Assembly (NCBI GenBank): GCA_015655255.1
Contig: JAATFJ010000123.1
Span: forward strand, 1-5,519
Origin: Actinomycetales bacterium
GTDB taxonomy: Bacteria > Actinomycetota > Actinomycetes > Actinomycetales > Microbacteriaceae
Direction of reading: 5' to 3'
DNA: 5,519 bases
Part shown: piece after piece, positions 1,208 to 4,714 of the stretch
Layout of the letters: each line of letters begins with the position of its first letter
Numbering within the stretch: the stretch's first letter is position 1
Notes under the pieces: model-generated
Told to the model about the DNA's origin: nothing
What the model saw: only the letters and a program-made list of their open reading frames with translations
Databases searched by the model: none
Translations under genes and position numbers: made by a program

Positions 1208-2155
1208 ATGACCGCGAAGATCGTCTCGAAGGATCGTTTCTCCGCGTTGGGGACAGGCGCCAGTACGCGCGTTACCCAGCTGAGCGGAAACGAGCTAGCG
1301 CACCCGAGCGCTGAGGCACTGGAGGACTCCGTTTTGGCCGCAGACATCGAACCGACATCGACGACAGCTGAAGAGAACGCCCTACGCCGCCACCGCACCC
1401 CGGCCCCGCGGAGCCGGGCGAGCCGTGTGCTCAAGCCGCTGCGTTCTGTCGCGATCTTCAGTGCGGTCGGTGCGCTCGTCGCGGCGGTCGCGATTCCCGC
1501 GTACGCGGCCAGTCAGCCGTCTGCCGAAGCGGTGACGACACTGCAGCAGGCCGCCATGCAGGATGCCCAGTCTCTCGTCATCGCCTCCGACGCCACCTCG
1601 GCGCCGCTCGATCGCGGCACGTTCACCGCCACGACGCCGGAAGAGATCGCCAAGAAGGAGGCGGAGGAGGCGGCCGCTGCGCGTGCCGCCGCTGCCGCGA
1701 AGGCCGCCGCGACTTCCACCGCGTCGTTCAGCAACGTCGATCTCTCGCTCACGTCCCCGGGCTCCGGTGAGGTCCGCTATCCGCTCACCGTGCAGTACTC
1801 GGTGAGCCGCACCGTCGGTGGCGGGCACAACGGTGCGGATATGCTCGCTCCCGCGGGCAGCCCGATCTACGCGGCGGCGGGTGGCACGGTCATCGCCTCG
1901 GCGGAGAGTATCGGCGGCTACGGCGTGTGCATCATGATCCAGTCCACCGTCGGCGGGCAGAGCGTGAAGACGACGTACGGGCACATGACCTACGGCTCTC
2001 GGCTCGTCCAGGTCGGTGACACCGTCGCACCCGGACAGATCATCGGGCTCGTCGGCAGCACGGGACGGTCCACCGCCAACCACCTCCACTTCGAGGTCTG
2101 GGTCAACGGCAGTCTCATGGAGCCGGTCGCCTGGCTCGCCGCCAACGCCGGCTGA
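1208..2155 (+). CDS. M23 (LytM-type) zinc metallopeptidase, membrane-anchored or secreted
   Basis: Probable peptidoglycan hydrolase or cell-wall remodelling endopeptidase of 315 aa. Residues 1-79 are a hydrophilic region, basic near its end (RRHRTPAPRSRASR). A hydrophobic segment at about 81-97 ends in AYA-AS, a plausible signal-peptidase site after A100. A Glu/Ala/Lys-rich linker, probably helical, spans about 144-168, and the M23 domain covers about 185-312. The catalytic set is complete: H207 and D211 in the HNGAD (HxxxD) motif, H259 in YGHM, and H292 and H294 in HLHFE. H207, D211 and H294 should bind zinc. The intact site argues for an active enzyme rather than an EnvC/NlpD-like activator. 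The long N-region before the hydrophobic stretch is odd for a signal peptide; a type II membrane anchor is the alternative. The ATG at 1208 follows a strong promoter, but a later start cannot be excluded. Confidence 0.9.
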   Translation: MTAKIVSKDRFSALGTGASTRVTQLSGNELAHPSAEALEDSVLAADIEPTSTTAEENALRRHRTPAPRSRASRVLKPLRSVAIFSAVGALVAAVAIPAYAASQPSAEAVTTLQQAAMQDAQSLVIASDATSAPLDRGTFTATTPEEIAKKEAEEAAAARAAAAAKAAATSTASFSNVDLSLTSPGSGEVRYPLTVQYSVSRTVGGGHNGADMLAPAGSPIYAAAGGTVIASAESIGGYGVCIMIQSTVGGQSVKTTYGHMTYGSRLVQVGDTVAPGQIIGLVGSTGRSTANHLHFEVWVNGSLMEPVAWLAANAG

Positions 2156-2488: not shown

Positions 2489-2986
2489 ATGCGCACACTG
2501 GTCCTGAACGCCGGATACGAGCCGCTCGCGGTGGTGTCCTTCAAACGAGCCCTCGTGCTTGTCATGAACGATAAGGCGACGGTCATCGAGCACGAGGAGG
2601 GGAACCCCGTGTGGGCCTCCCGGGGCTCCTACGAGCGGCCGGCGGTGATCATCCTCACCCGCTACGTGCGTATACCCACGACGCGCAAGGTTCCCGTGAC
2701 GCGTCGCGGCGTCCTCCGCCGCGACAATCAGCGCTGCGGGTACTGCGGCAAGGCGGCCTCGACGATCGATCACATCCAGCCGCGCTCGCGCGGGGGAGCG
2801 GACTCGTGGGAGAACCTCGTCGCCTGCTGCCTGCGCTGCAACAACATCAAGAGTGATCGCACGCCGCAGGAGATGGGCTGGTCCCTCCAGTTCACGCCCC
2901 GTCCGCCGCACGGCACCTCGTGGACCGTGCGCGGCACCGAGCGCAGCGATCCGCGCTGGGAGCCGTACCTCGCACTCGCCGCGTAG
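2489..2986 (+). CDS. HNH endonuclease family protein
   Basis: A 165-aa cytoplasmic protein with a C-terminal ββα-metal HNH nuclease module. The conserved N-terminal part (MRTLVLNAGYEPLAVVSF) and the central RYVRIPTTRKVPVTRRGVL block are typical of the small chromosomal HNH proteins found widely in Actinobacteria. The nuclease core has a zinc-knuckle pair C83-x2-C86, the D94-H95 catalytic dyad region, N109, and C114-x2-C117 followed by N118, N119, K121 and D123-R124. All key positions look intact. The exact substrate is not established; a role in DNA repair or restriction of damaged DNA is a guess. I chose the ATG at 2489 over 2483 because of ribosome binding site spacing and the family start. 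It stands alone between the terminator at 2401 and the tRNA; no clear promoter was found, so attenuation read-through is possible. Confidence 0.88.
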   Translation: MRTLVLNAGYEPLAVVSFKRALVLVMNDKATVIEHEEGNPVWASRGSYERPAVIILTRYVRIPTTRKVPVTRRGVLRRDNQRCGYCGKAASTIDHIQPRSRGGADSWENLVACCLRCNNIKSDRTPQEMGWSLQFTPRPPHGTSWTVRGTERSDPRWEPYLALAA

Positions 2987-2990
2987 CCGG

Positions 2991-2996
2991 TAGACT
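2991..2996 (+). promoter_or_regulatory. Probable -10 element of tRNA-Arg
   Basis: TAGACT fits TANNNT and lies 10 nt before the mature tRNA 5' end, only 4 nt after the HNH stop codon. No good -35 sequence sits at 17 nt. Co-transcription with the HNH gene is possible. Confidence 0.5.
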
Positions 2997-3006
2997 CGAC
3001 CCGCCA

Positions 3007-3081
3007 GCCTCTGTAGCTCAATGGAAGAGCAGTTGCGTCCTAAGCAAACGGTTGGGGGTTCGAGTCCCTCCAGGGGCACCA
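3007..3081 (+). tRNA. tRNA-Arg (anticodon CCT), CCA encoded
   Basis: A full cloverleaf folds by hand. The acceptor stem is GCCTCTG with CAGGGGC (one T·G pair), the D stem is GCTC/GAGC, and the anticodon loop GTCCTAA has CCT at 3039-3041. The T arm has loop TTCGAGT, then discriminator A3078 and CCA 3079-3081. CCT decodes AGG arginine codons. The top pair of the anticodon stem (G3032 with A3048, positions 27-43) is mismatched; the other four pairs are good. The prophage-like genes begin right after this gene, so its 3' half is the likely attachment site. Confidence 0.93.
3054..3081 (+). other. Inferred attachment (att) core in the tRNA 3' end
   Basis: Tyrosine integrases of actinophages often recombine inside the 3' end of a tRNA gene and leave the tRNA intact. 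Host genes lie to the left and lysis-type phage genes to the right, so a crossover in the T arm to CCA segment is the simplest boundary. No second copy of this sequence is visible in the window, so the exact core and its length are not known. Confidence 0.4.
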
Positions 3082-3090
3082 CCTAGCCCT

Positions 3091-3106
3091 ACTCCCGACA
3101 GGGAGT
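3091..3106. repeat. Small hairpin just after the tRNA
   Basis: ACTCCC (3091-3096) and GGGAGT (3101-3106) pair perfectly around GACA. There is no T-tract. It may assist tRNA 3' processing or termination, or be an arm-type site near the att junction. The remaining stretch to 3202 shows no gene. Confidence 0.3.
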
Positions 3107-3202
3107 GATCCAAGCGGCCATCGGGGAAGAATCCTGAGATCCAGCGCTTACCCAGCGGAAACGATGGGCGGCGGGCCTCAACCCGATCACCGGGAAGCCT
3201 CG

Positions 3203-3208
3203 TAACCT
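3203..3208 (+). promoter_or_regulatory. -10 element of the 87-aa gene, leaderless geometry
   Basis: TAACCT fits TANNNT and lies 6 nt before the ATG at 3215, so transcription should begin at the start codon. No ribosome binding site lies at a usable distance: the GGGAAG at 3192-3197 is 17 nt away. Same spacing as serC. Confidence 0.5.
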
Positions 3209-3214
3209 GTCCTC

Positions 3215-3478
3215 ATGATCGGAACTATCCGCCCCATCGAAACCACCACCATCGAGAAGACGGGCACCGACTCCACCGTCCTCTACGAGGAACTGTTGAG
3301 TGCGACGCCTGCCGGGTTCGTGATGAGCTTGTTCCGACACGCGCAAGCCGCTACCACCGTCACAGCCACCGCGACCTACACGCGCGAGAACGGTGCGGAG
3401 ACGATCGAAGCACCCGGCCTCGACGCCCTCCACGCGAAGACCCCAGAGGGCTGGCAACTTCTCTTCGTGCAGGCCTGA
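3215..3478 (+). CDS. Hypothetical 87-aa protein, probable prophage cargo gene
   Basis: I do not recognise this protein. It has no signal peptide or membrane segment. It is rich in Thr and Ala, with a possible strand-rich middle (TTVTATATYTRENGAETIEA) and an end GWQLLFVQA that suggests a small compact α/β or β fold, perhaps a small regulatory or accessory protein. It sits between the tRNA and the rest of the element in the orientation opposite to the lysis genes. It has its own -10 box, starts without a leader, and is followed 6 nt after its stop by a strong hairpin. That promoter-gene-terminator unit is typical of morons expressed in the lysogen. A gene on the host side of the junction is less likely given its place after the tRNA. 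Confidence 0.65.
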   Translation: MIGTIRPIETTTIEKTGTDSTVLYEELLSATPAGFVMSLFRHAQAATTVTATATYTRENGAETIEAPGLDALHAKTPEGWQLLFVQA

Positions 3479-3583
3479 ACACAAAACGTCCTCATCCTCT
3501 CGAAAGAGGATGGGGACGTTCCCGCTCTGGCGTCTTGAGCTACACCCCTGGCCTGGGGCTCCCCGCCTCGAATCGGGGATCAT
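3479..3583 (-). ncRNA. Candidate small RNA, copy A of a duplicated module
   Basis: On the minus strand, TAAAGT (3595-3590) could be a -10 box, giving a start near 3583. The RNA would contain the hairpin CCCCGATTCGAGGCGGGG (3578-3561), a CCCC/GGGG stem-loop (3558-3545), the 12-mer AGCTCAAGACGC (3541-3530), and a terminator hairpin with TTCG loop and T-rich tail. The same parts recur in the same order in copy B. No reading frame with a ribosome binding site is present. Transcription and strand are inferred. Confidence 0.35.
3485..3520. terminator. Long hairpin terminator, T-tract on the minus strand
   Basis: A 16-bp stem with one G·T pair (AACGTCCTCATCCTCT with AGAGGATGGGGACGTT) closes a CGAA loop. 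On the plus strand it follows the 87-aa gene stop directly but has only two T residues. On the minus strand the loop is TTCG and the tail is TTTTGTGTT, so termination should be better in that direction. It probably works both ways. Confidence 0.75.
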
Positions 3584-3604
3584 GGGACTACTTTAACACC
3601 CATC
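3530..3604. repeat. Duplicated noncoding module, copy A
   Basis: In plus-strand order: GCGTCTTGAGCT (3530-3541), stem-loop CCCC-TGGCCT-GGGG (3545-3558), CCCCGCCTCGAATCGGGG (3561-3578), and TACTTTAACACCCATC (3589-3604). Each part has a counterpart in copy B (3650-3749): 10/12, preserved pairing, 17/18 and 13/16 identical. Confidence 0.75.
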
Positions 3605-3609
3605 ACGAA

Positions 3610-3728
3610 CGGCGAAGGGCCACTCGCGGGAGTGGCCCTTCGTTGCTCCGCATCTCGAGCTCGCGGTTTATCACCGCCCCCGCCTCTAATCGGGGCCCTC
3701 TATTTTCGTCCTTGCAGACGCTAGATCT
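3610..3728 (-). ncRNA. Candidate small RNA, copy B of a duplicated module
   Basis: On the minus strand TAATGT (3740-3735) is a possible -10 box with a start near 3728. Then come CCCCGATTAGAGGCGGGG (3695-3678), a 5-bp stem-loop GCGGT/ACCGC (3677-3663), AGCTCGAGATGC (3661-3650) and the 13-bp hairpin. The order matches copy A, but 28 extra nt lie between the promoter-like motif and the 18-mer. The terminal hairpin has a poor T-tail, so this copy is less certain as a transcript. Confidence 0.3.
3613..3642. terminator. Perfect 13-bp hairpin, probable terminator
   Basis: CGAAGGGCCACTC (3613-3625) pairs perfectly with GAGTGGCCCTTCG (3630-3642) around GCGG. It lacks a real T-tract on either strand (plus TTGCTCC, minus CCGTTCG). 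It would be the 3' hairpin of candidate RNA B on the minus strand, or an actinobacterial U-poor terminator in the plus direction. Confidence 0.6.
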
Positions 3729-3749
3729 GCGGATACATTAACACCTATG
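3650..3749. repeat. Duplicated noncoding module, copy B
   Basis: In plus-strand order: GCATCTCGAGCT (3650-3661), stem-loop GCGGT-TTATC-ACCGC (3663-3677), CCCCGCCTCTAATCGGGG (3678-3695), and TACATTAACACCTATG (3734-3749). The last part includes the start codon of the 204-aa gene. The stem-loop has a sequence quite different from copy A but keeps full pairing. Confidence 0.75.
3734..3739 (+). promoter_or_regulatory. -10 element of the 204-aa gene, leaderless geometry
   Basis: TACATT fits TANNNT and lies 7 nt before the ATG at 3747. No ribosome binding site precedes the ATG (AACACCT). The box is part of the duplicated TACWTTAACACCYAT motif, which could also be a repressor operator covering the start. 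Confidence 0.5.
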
Positions 3750-4361
3750 TCGCCCGTACGCCAGCCCTACTTCGGCATCACCACGCAGCAAGCAGAAACA
3801 GCTCTCGCCCGATGGCTCCTCCCCCACCGATTGGCGGATCTGGAAGGACGCCTCGACCCCTCCGCCGACAGGTATTCGAAGCTCGGCATATCCCTGATAA
3901 TCCGGTCTCTCCTGATCGATGGACAGAACATCGAGTCTCTCGCCCGCAATCGAGGGGAGATCACTCCACCCATCTTCAGCTACACGCCCTACAAGCCTCA
4001 GGAAGGTCCGGTACGTGACGGCCTGCACTGGGTGGAGAACGGTGTGCCGACGCTCATATTCGCCACGACGACATCGGCTTTCACATCGCCCACGGTGCAG
4101 TCCGATCTCAAAGGCTTCCTGAAGGCTCCGGTAGCGCAAATCGAAAGCACACCCGTCTCTGTCCAGGAGTTCGTGAAGGCATATGCCCATGTCCTCGGAG
4201 GCGTGCATCTCGGCAGACCCGACTCCGACGCACAGAAGCTACTGCACGCCGCTTCCGCAGCGATCTCGCAAGCCGTCAACGGATGGTCAGCGGCGCTCCA
4301 ACACATCGGTGTCGTCACGTTGCGAGCGCTGAAACCTATCGCAGAAACCCCGGCTTTCTAA
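3747..4361 (+). CDS. Hypothetical 204-aa protein, probable prophage cargo gene
   Basis: I do not recognise the family with confidence. The protein is soluble, with no signal peptide or membrane span. It looks mostly helical at the ends (residues 11-60 and about 140-200), with a strand-rich middle around GLHWVENGVPTLIFATTTSA. The segment FVKAYAHVLGGVHLGRPDSD, about residues 139-158, recalls a GGVH motif seen in assorted uncharacterised phage and mobile-element proteins; this is memory-based and weak. Base composition is less G/C-rich than the host genes, which fits transfer. It runs opposite to the lysis genes, has its own leaderless-type promoter inside a duplicated noncoding module, and ends before a hairpin terminator. 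That suggests expression from the lysogen, for example superinfection exclusion or another host-benefit trait, but no function can be read from the sequence. Confidence 0.75.
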   Translation: MSPVRQPYFGITTQQAETALARWLLPHRLADLEGRLDPSADRYSKLGISLIIRSLLIDGQNIESLARNRGEITPPIFSYTPYKPQEGPVRDGLHWVENGVPTLIFATTTSAFTSPTVQSDLKGFLKAPVAQIESTPVSVQEFVKAYAHVLGGVHLGRPDSDAQKLLHAASAAISQAVNGWSAALQHIGVVTLRALKPIAETPAF

Positions 4362-4378
4362 TACCGAAGCCACGAAGA

Positions 4379-4410
4379 GGACCCCGCCTTCCCGGAGGAA
4401 AGCGGGGGCC
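4379..4410. terminator. Bidirectional hairpin between convergent genes
   Basis: GG-a-CCCCGC-c-TTCC (4379-4392) pairs with GGAA-a-GCGGGG-g-CC (4397-4410) around CGGA, with three symmetric 1-nt mismatches. It lies between the stop of the 204-aa gene (4361) and the stop of the minus-strand 64-aa gene (4417), where a shared terminator is expected. T-tracts are weak on both strands. Confidence 0.65.
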
Positions 4411-4416
4411 TGTTCC

Positions 4417-4611
4417 TCAGCGGTCGAGGAGCACTTGCGCGATCAACTCCGCCGGCAGGGTGAGCACCAGTTCTTCCGCGAGTTCCCCGAAGGGCAGCCG
4501 AATCGTCATCTCCACCTCTCCATGATCAGCTCGTTCCACCCTCACGCGAACGGGCGAGAGTTCGGTGAGCTGCTGCCGCTTGTAGACGATCAACGCTGAC
4601 ACGTCATGCAT
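4417..4611 (-). CDS. Hypothetical 64-aa phage protein
   Basis: A small acidic protein (MHDVSALIVYKRQQLTELSP...) with alternating hydrophobic residues suggesting β strands (VRVRVER, EMTIRLPF) and a C-terminal Leu-rich helix. No membrane segment and no family recognised. The start is well supported: AAGGAA (4623-4618) lies 6 nt before the ATG at 4611. It is the last minus-strand gene before the tRNA side, 117 bp after the holin-like gene and beyond a strong terminator. It is therefore expressed by read-through or from a weak promoter I could not find. Confidence 0.68.
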   Translation of the reverse strand: MHDVSALIVYKRQQLTELSPVRVRVERADHGEVEMTIRLPFGELAEELVLTLPAELIAQVLLDR

Positions 4612-4671
4612 GATGGTTTCCTTCTTTCCGGCGCCCCGTGTGGACGCTCGGCACCAGCATGGAGAAACGAC

Positions 4672-4714
4672 AAAACTGCCCCCACCCTCCCGACGAATCG
4701 GTGAGGGTGGGGGC
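4672..4714 (-). terminator. Strong intrinsic terminator after the lysis genes
   Basis: On the minus strand GCCCCCACCCTC (4714-4703) pairs perfectly with GAGGGTGGGGGC (4689-4678). An inner CCGA/TCGG stem caps with a TTCG loop, with a single A bulge at 4702. The tail AGTTTTGT follows. It starts 15 nt past the holin-like stop codon and ends the lysis operon. Confidence 0.9.

Follow-up and report, generated by a model that had tools for sequence, protein, structure and literature searches.

A small two-copy repeat between two putative prophage cargo genes is a likely boundary of leaderless promoters and hairpin terminators

Introduction

What is the role of the stretch at 3479-3749, which lies between two short plus-strand genes and contains several parts twice in the same order? 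In the original prediction it was a duplicated, structured non-coding module. Stem-loops that differ in sequence and still pair were taken as a hint of selection on RNA structure, and the minus strand was read as two small RNAs. The repeat, its hairpins and its promoter-like motif were compared with shuffled sequence, with sequence collections and with the rest of the window, which is the whole 5,519-nt stretch of DNA analysed.

Results

Genomic setting

The left 3 kb of the contig has chromosomal-looking gene content. The gene start at the left end, at 308 on the minus strand, presumably belongs to a serC-like gene. Other proteins of the left part are a DtxR equivalog, an M23-type peptidase and an HNH protein, the latter two with matches below cut-offs. 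ARAGORN identified a tRNA-Arg (anticodon CCT) at 3007-3081. At the right end, a 106-aa minus-strand gene has 46-63% matches in 6 Microbacterium phage records, and 219 nt in the region of a 92-aa lysis-side gene match phage vB_MoxS-R1 at 75.5%. The chromosomal-like left and prophage-like right parts are separated by two genes on the plus strand, one encoding 87 aa and the other 204 aa. Because the 106-aa gene and the 92-aa region match Microbacterium phages, the host would be Microbacterium-like and the 87-aa and 204-aa genes would be prophage cargo. The right end appears to be part of a Microbacterium-type prophage, with the putative cargo region at its tRNA-side end.

3215-3478, plus strand: 87-aa putative cargo gene, an orphan ORF with GC3 0.82
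3747-4361, plus strand: 204-aa putative cargo gene of unknown function, with homologs P0002-P0004 at 58-63% identity

A protein search with the 87-aa product returned no homolog but itself. The 204-aa family is sparse, with 3 homologs in a single-sequence search and 15 members, including the query, in a profile search that scored 7998 candidates. Weaker homologs lie on 4 Arthrobacter plasmid records, three of them covering 40-42%. The family has a conserved GGVHL motif, and its distant members occur in Hymenobacter as well as on the Arthrobacter plasmids. PADLOC gave only a weak match (PDC-S14, E 0.026). The predicted fold has a mean pLDDT of 82 and matched no solved structure at E <= 0.001. 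Peptide patterns, which have limited sensitivity, found no relatives in IMG/VR and genome_contigs, nor did tblastn in phages.

Two features of the left part were observed in passing. In the region 1208-1340 (plus strand), the ORF of the M23-type peptidase opens at 1208 without a Shine-Dalgarno sequence. A TTG at 1334 has GGAGGA close upstream; this TTG may be the true start, preceded by a long leader. The surrounding 1100-1400 has no Rfam match. At 2277-2401 on the plus strand, a 31-codon ORF, possibly a short protein or leader peptide, is directly followed by a hairpin with a T-run, AGCGCTACCCCCTGGGGTGGCGCTTTTTT.

The repeat

3485-3520, no strand assigned: hairpin T1, 16 bp on the plus strand (one G-U), one mismatch on the minus strand and then TTTTGTGTT
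3530-3541, no strand assigned: 12-mer, copy 1, inside a GCTC-N9-GAGC stem-loop (3524-3541)
3561-3578, no strand assigned: 18-mer, copy 1, a 5-bp stem with an 8-nt loop
3610-3645, no strand assigned: hairpin T2, 16 bp on the plus strand (two G-U) and 13 bp on the minus strand, without a T-tail on either strand
3650-3661, no strand assigned: 12-mer, copy 2, inside a GCTC-N8-GAGC stem-loop (3645-3661)
3678-3695, no strand assigned: 18-mer, copy 2, followed on the plus strand by CCCTCTATTTT, terminator-like

The repeated unit of hairpin, conserved motifs and promoter-like motif is present between the two prophage-side genes, with its parts where they had been placed. The 12-mer pair lies at 3530 and 3650 (10/12 identical), the 18-mer pair at 3561 and 3678 (17/18), and the 15-mer, which had been called the promoter-like motif, at 3589 and 3734 (13/15). 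Stem-loops occupy 3545-3558 in copy 1 and 3663-3677 in copy 2, and the long hairpins stand 9 nt (copy 1) and 7 nt (copy 2) upstream of the 12-mers.

To evaluate the motif pairs, the two stretches between hairpins were dinucleotide-shuffled 2000 times. An 18-mer pair with at least 17/18 identities occurred in 0/2000 shuffles and is the sole pair of such quality in the window. For the 15-mer pair, chance is a moderately unlikely source (27/2000), and the window has 76 comparable pairs. The 12-mer pair is at chance level (465/2000), with 1720 comparable pairs. All three pairs in order were found in 0/2000 shuffles. A gapped alignment of the two units scored 34.5, above 3000/3000 shuffles; the same score ranks only 3rd among 861 pairs of 130-nt window pieces. 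The gap between 18-mer and 15-mer, which the original prediction did not mention, is unequal, at 10 nt in copy 1 and 38 nt in copy 2. MAFFT left the two copies unaligned through the middle, so a covariance model would yield no covariation. The two-copy repeat is real but small.

Two GC-rich hairpins that are ordinary terminators, and two promoters that share the 18-mer by coincidence, would accommodate the rank of the unit alignment. They would also accommodate the chance-level 12-mer and copy-1 stem, and the recurrence of the 18-mer pattern in two unrelated places, a phage terminator and a coding-looking stretch. Against such a coincidence are the counts of 0/2000 for the 18-mer pair and for the three ordered motifs, and we judge it quite improbable.

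Searches for relatives of the repeat

DNA searches covered phages, plasmids and IMG/VR, and Microbacteriaceae genomes were covered through peptide patterns in genome_contigs only. No further copies were found in phages, plasmids yielded only one 34-nt match (E 0.8), and another pattern scan of IMG/VR found none. The relaxed 18-mer was present in 0/3 Microbacterium phage records, and relatives of the lysis-side genes in IMG/VR and phages lack the 18-mer at <=3 mismatches. Five IMG/VR stretches that match the 18-mer or its relaxed form were rejected by eye as unrelated: L001 and L014 are terminator-like, L013 lies in an AT-rich stretch, and L002 and L012 are coding-looking. At 6034-6051 (minus strand) of L001, an unrelated phage contig, the 18-mer pattern, whose variable loop base is C here, forms an apparent classical terminator stem-loop with a T-run.

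In Rfam, nothing in the stretch came near a gathering score, which window-wide only the tRNA reaches. The best trace was a Streptomyces sRNA, RF02827, at 21.3 bits versus 52.5 needed (E 4). Two further candidates were set aside. For a degenerate tRNA, the GCTC/GAGC stem-loop is D-arm-like with no acceptor stem visible by eye, and ARAGORN yields the tRNA-Arg only. For an integron attC site, the expected end boxes are absent by eye.

The 18-mer could alternatively be a DNA element bound by protein, either a regulator's operator or a recombinase site, through which the cargo cassettes are controlled or moved. It would then have inverted arms of 5 bp, separated by a conserved, asymmetric spacer of 8 nt. 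Its 17/18 identity amid diverged surroundings and its direct orientation upstream of both promoters are consistent with this. The arms, however, are only 5 bp long, the distance to the 15-mer is unequal (10 versus 38 nt), and the prophage side of the contig has no recognisable gene for a protein of this type. Apart from matches fetched by the pattern itself, the window and 18 loci contain no more copies at <=3 mismatches. We consider a DNA element of this kind improbable.

Weak stem-loops

3524-3541, no strand assigned: first weak stem-loop of copy 1, GCTC-N9-GAGC, in the minimum free energy (MFE) structure of the minus transcript, in a linker no stabler than shuffles
3545-3558, no strand assigned: second weak stem-loop of copy 1, CCCC/GGGG, at chance level
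3645-3661, no strand assigned: first weak stem-loop of copy 2, GCTC-N8-GAGC, in the MFE structure of the minus transcript, overlapping the last T2 pair on the plus strand
3663-3677, no strand assigned: second stem-loop of copy 2, GCGGT/ACCGC, found ~1% of the time by chance

Shuffling the copy-1 spacer gave a 4-bp stem, as in copy 1, in 54% of cases, and 18% of equal-length window stretches contain one. For the 5-bp stem of copy 2 the frequency was ~1% in both comparisons. Stems of at least 4 bp in both spacers are a 1.35% event for random window stretches. The linkers from long hairpin to 18-mer have fold z-scores from +0.22 to -1.67 on either strand, which is no clear gain over shuffles; the low z-score of each full unit is mostly due to its long hairpin. 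Two stem-loops in both linkers are expected ~3% of the time on the plus strand and ~6% on the minus strand, as the product of separate frequencies and with a copy-2 linker that began at 3647, so that part of one stem was missing. The 18-mer stem is identical in both copies and is thus uninformative on covariation.

The argument for selection on RNA structure, which had been drawn from stem-loops that differ yet pair, fails because the 12-mer pair and the copy-1 stem-loop are at chance level; the linkers too are near shuffles. The proposal of a structured RNA family called for homologous copies with compensatory changes, and none were found in phages, plasmids and IMG/VR. With linker structure near chance, a new structured RNA family is unsupported, though conceivable.

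Putative leaderless promoters

3203-3217, plus strand: putative leaderless promoter signature of the 87-aa gene, TAACCT, 6 nt, ATG, without a Shine-Dalgarno sequence
3589-3603, no strand assigned: copy 1 promoter motif, TACTTTA-ACACCC-AT, with a predicted plus start at 3601/3602 that has no start codon and a predicted minus start at 3583
3734-3749, no strand assigned: copy 2 promoter motif, TACATTA-ACACCT-ATG, the putative leaderless promoter of the 204-aa gene, pseudo-symmetric, with a predicted minus start at 3728

In Actinobacteria, where leaderless genes are common, they are marked by TANNNT ~12 bp before the start codon, according to excerpts of two reports (PMC3160421, PMC3898074). This element stands before the starts at 3215 (6-nt spacer) and 3747 (7-nt spacer), and both starts lack a Shine-Dalgarno sequence, as leaderless genes do. 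In copy 2, TACATT is followed after 7 nt by the ATG of the 204-aa gene, with a predicted plus start at 3746/3747. In copy 1, ATC occupies the position where the start codon would stand.

The signature is rare. TANNNT lies 5-8 nt upstream of 2/151 ATG or GTG triplets on the plus strand, and these two are 3215 and 3747. On the minus strand 3/184 triplets have it: an ATG inside copy 1 (3583), a GTG (367) and the start of the serC-like gene (308). Over 300 shuffled windows, an ATG with TANNNT 6-7 nt upstream arises 0.38 times on average. In two Microbacterium phages the signature is present at 0/43 annotated gene starts (27 from L005 and 16 from L003), which are mostly those of phage core genes and not proven cargo. 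These starts came from the fetched phage parts, with genes cut by a locus end excluded and a third phage, L004, left out.

A strict two-hexamer promoter scan of 2980-4700 passed no candidate, and the -35 regions are poor. P0002 and P0003, which align from the first residue of the 204-aa protein, support its start codon. The best reading of the 15-mer is a promoter, putatively leaderless and of the sigma-70 type. In TANNNT 6-7 nt before ATG and the lack of a Shine-Dalgarno sequence, the locus resembles the leaderless promoters of Actinobacteria as described in the excerpts (PMC3160421, PMC3898074). Unlike those, the two repeated putative promoter motifs are also pseudo-symmetric (TANNNTA). The 15-mer had previously been viewed as a minus-strand promoter; a minus-strand -10 does exist, and the putative plus-strand leaderless start at the ATG of the 204-aa gene had been overlooked.

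Three of the Arthrobacter homologs (L015, L016 and L017) have similar upstream regions by eye, with a TACACT or TACCCT -10-like box and a ~60-nt leader. This leader contrasts with the leaderless start in the window.

Putative terminators

4382-4407, no strand assigned: hairpin T3, after the 204-aa gene
4678-4714, minus strand: hairpin after the 92-aa gene

T1 has fold z-scores of -6.2 on the plus strand and -4.6 on the minus strand, and T2 of -7.9 and -6.5 (100 shuffles each). The two G-U pairs of T2 exist on the plus strand only, and without them the hairpin spans 3613-3642. T1 is probably a bidirectional terminator. According to an excerpt of PMC8355165, bacterial terminators commonly consist of one hairpin or a cluster, do not need a U-tract, and favour clusters at high GC. 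On this basis, we read T1 and T2, together with the weak hairpins, as putative terminators of the cassettes. The likeness to the clusters in that excerpt is that hairpins <15 nt apart stand just past a stop codon with no U-tract required, and the difference is that here a promoter directly follows the cluster (PMC8355165).

Pseudo-symmetric -10 elements

TANNNTA occurs twice in the window, once in each 15-mer, and a -10 of the form TAAWGT is therefore readable on the minus strand of each copy. By the usual geometry, starts are predicted at 3601/3602 and 3746/3747 on the plus strand and at 3583 and 3728 on the minus strand, 18-19 bp apart. Positions -11A and -7T coincide between the strands. 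In both copies plus-strand position -18 is T and the minus start is A; on the minus strand, copy 1 has G and copy 2 has A at -18, and the T lies at -19 instead. At least two TANNNTA in the region occurred in 107/2000 shuffles, and the window count of 2 is ordinary against a shuffle mean of 1.4.

The sequence features of bidirectional promoters, a symmetric -10 and divergent predicted starts ~18 bp apart, are largely present in both copies. Non-coding divergent RNAs from symmetric promoters are reported to be common. The resemblance to the bidirectional promoters described in excerpts of PMC10268837 and PMC12825309 lies in the coinciding -11A and -7T, starts 18-19 bp apart, the plus-strand -18 T and the minus-strand A. 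The differences are the absent minus-strand -18 T, found at -19, and starts predicted from sequence (PMC10268837, PMC12825309). The -10 elements may thus also fire leftwards.

The resulting RNAs could be two tandem small RNAs of the prophage, of ~105 nt (3583 to ~3479) and ~120 nt (3728 to ~3610). Each would run from the 18-mer stem-loop through the variable stem-loop and the GCTC/GAGC stem-loop to a terminator, and they would act through conserved loops. In favour of this part of the original prediction are the minus-strand -10 in both copies, a predicted minus start at A in both, and the T-rich minus-strand tail of T1 (TTTTGTGTT). So is the order of stem-loops: the predicted transcripts, folded as 3479-3583 and 3606-3728, have MFE structures with the stem-loops in the same order (z -3.35 and -4.52). 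The rest fits less well. T2 has no T-tail on the minus strand, the copy-1 centroid pairs differently, and the copy-2 RNA has one additional stem-loop at its 5' end. Most of the stability comes from T1 and T2, with linkers not clearly above shuffles, and for the minus strand two stem-loops in both linkers are expected ~6% of the time (the product of separate frequencies, with the copy-2 linker shortened). Further copies were missing from the searched sets, and no Rfam family matched the stretch at gathering score. We regard two such small RNAs as unlikely.

A combined model has promoters working both ways, with a leaderless mRNA or a stub rightwards and, leftwards, tandem new prophage small RNAs that share the 18-nt stem-loop and regulate cargo or host. 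We hold this to be rather unlikely. The rightward RNA of copy 1 would be a stub of ~45 nt at most, consisting of a hairpin only (3602-3650 folded).

On the minus strand opposite the 87-aa gene, a 164-aa ORF (3089-3583) begins exactly at 3583, the minus start predicted in copy 1 (TAAAGT, 6 nt, ATG). Its GC3 (0.62) is below its GC1 (0.71), and it looks non-coding.

Discussion

The reading that we favour, and find reasonably likely, is that two moron-like cargo genes of a Microbacterium-type prophage are transcribed independently, with 3479-3749 as the regulatory boundary that separates them. Each unit would comprise a strong hairpin terminator, weak hairpins including the 18-mer, and a leaderless sigma-70-type promoter. 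The 87-aa gene would have its own leaderless promoter and a transcript that ends at T1, and the copy-2 promoter would start the 204-aa mRNA at its own ATG, with the end at T3. The copy-1 promoter faces T2, 8 nt downstream, and its rightward product would be a hairpin-only RNA of <=~45 nt, which makes copy 1 a putative promoter that meets the next terminator before any gene. Copy 1 is probably what is left of a cassette after its gene was lost, or else one half of a boundary that was duplicated. Searches returned no relative that shares this boundary, and the loss of a gene is something we infer. Both -10 elements may in addition fire leftwards, giving RNAs of ~105 and ~120 nt that would end at T1 and T2.

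The boundary reading draws on the leaderless signature at both cargo starts and on hairpins that also follow the 204-aa and 92-aa genes. Several observations count against it. The tail of T1 is better on the minus strand, and a plain promoter offers no explanation for the 18-mer. Neither the 18-mer (<=3 mismatches) nor the 15-mer (<=2) is present at the four Arthrobacter plasmid loci. The contig contains one prophage side only, in which no attachment site was identified.

Moron loci with their own promoter, transcribed antisense to lytic genes, are described in an excerpt of PMC7067206. The genes here likewise lie opposite lysis genes, and each seems to have a promoter of its own and a hairpin behind it. 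They differ from the morons of that excerpt in their leaderless starts, in an orphan promoter between two terminator-like hairpins, and in products of unknown function (PMC7067206). Of the features of a moron, candidate promoter and terminator sequences are present and gene matches provide the prophage context, seen from one prophage side only. Our search found no literature that joins moron, promoter and terminator in actinobacteriophage prophages, and we do not claim its absence from print.

If the small RNAs were real, they would be a new small-RNA pair in this phage group, for which few small RNAs are known. If the boundary reading is correct, leaderless, possibly bidirectional promoters would distinguish cargo genes from the Shine-Dalgarno genes of the phage itself, and this could help to flag moron genes from sequence.
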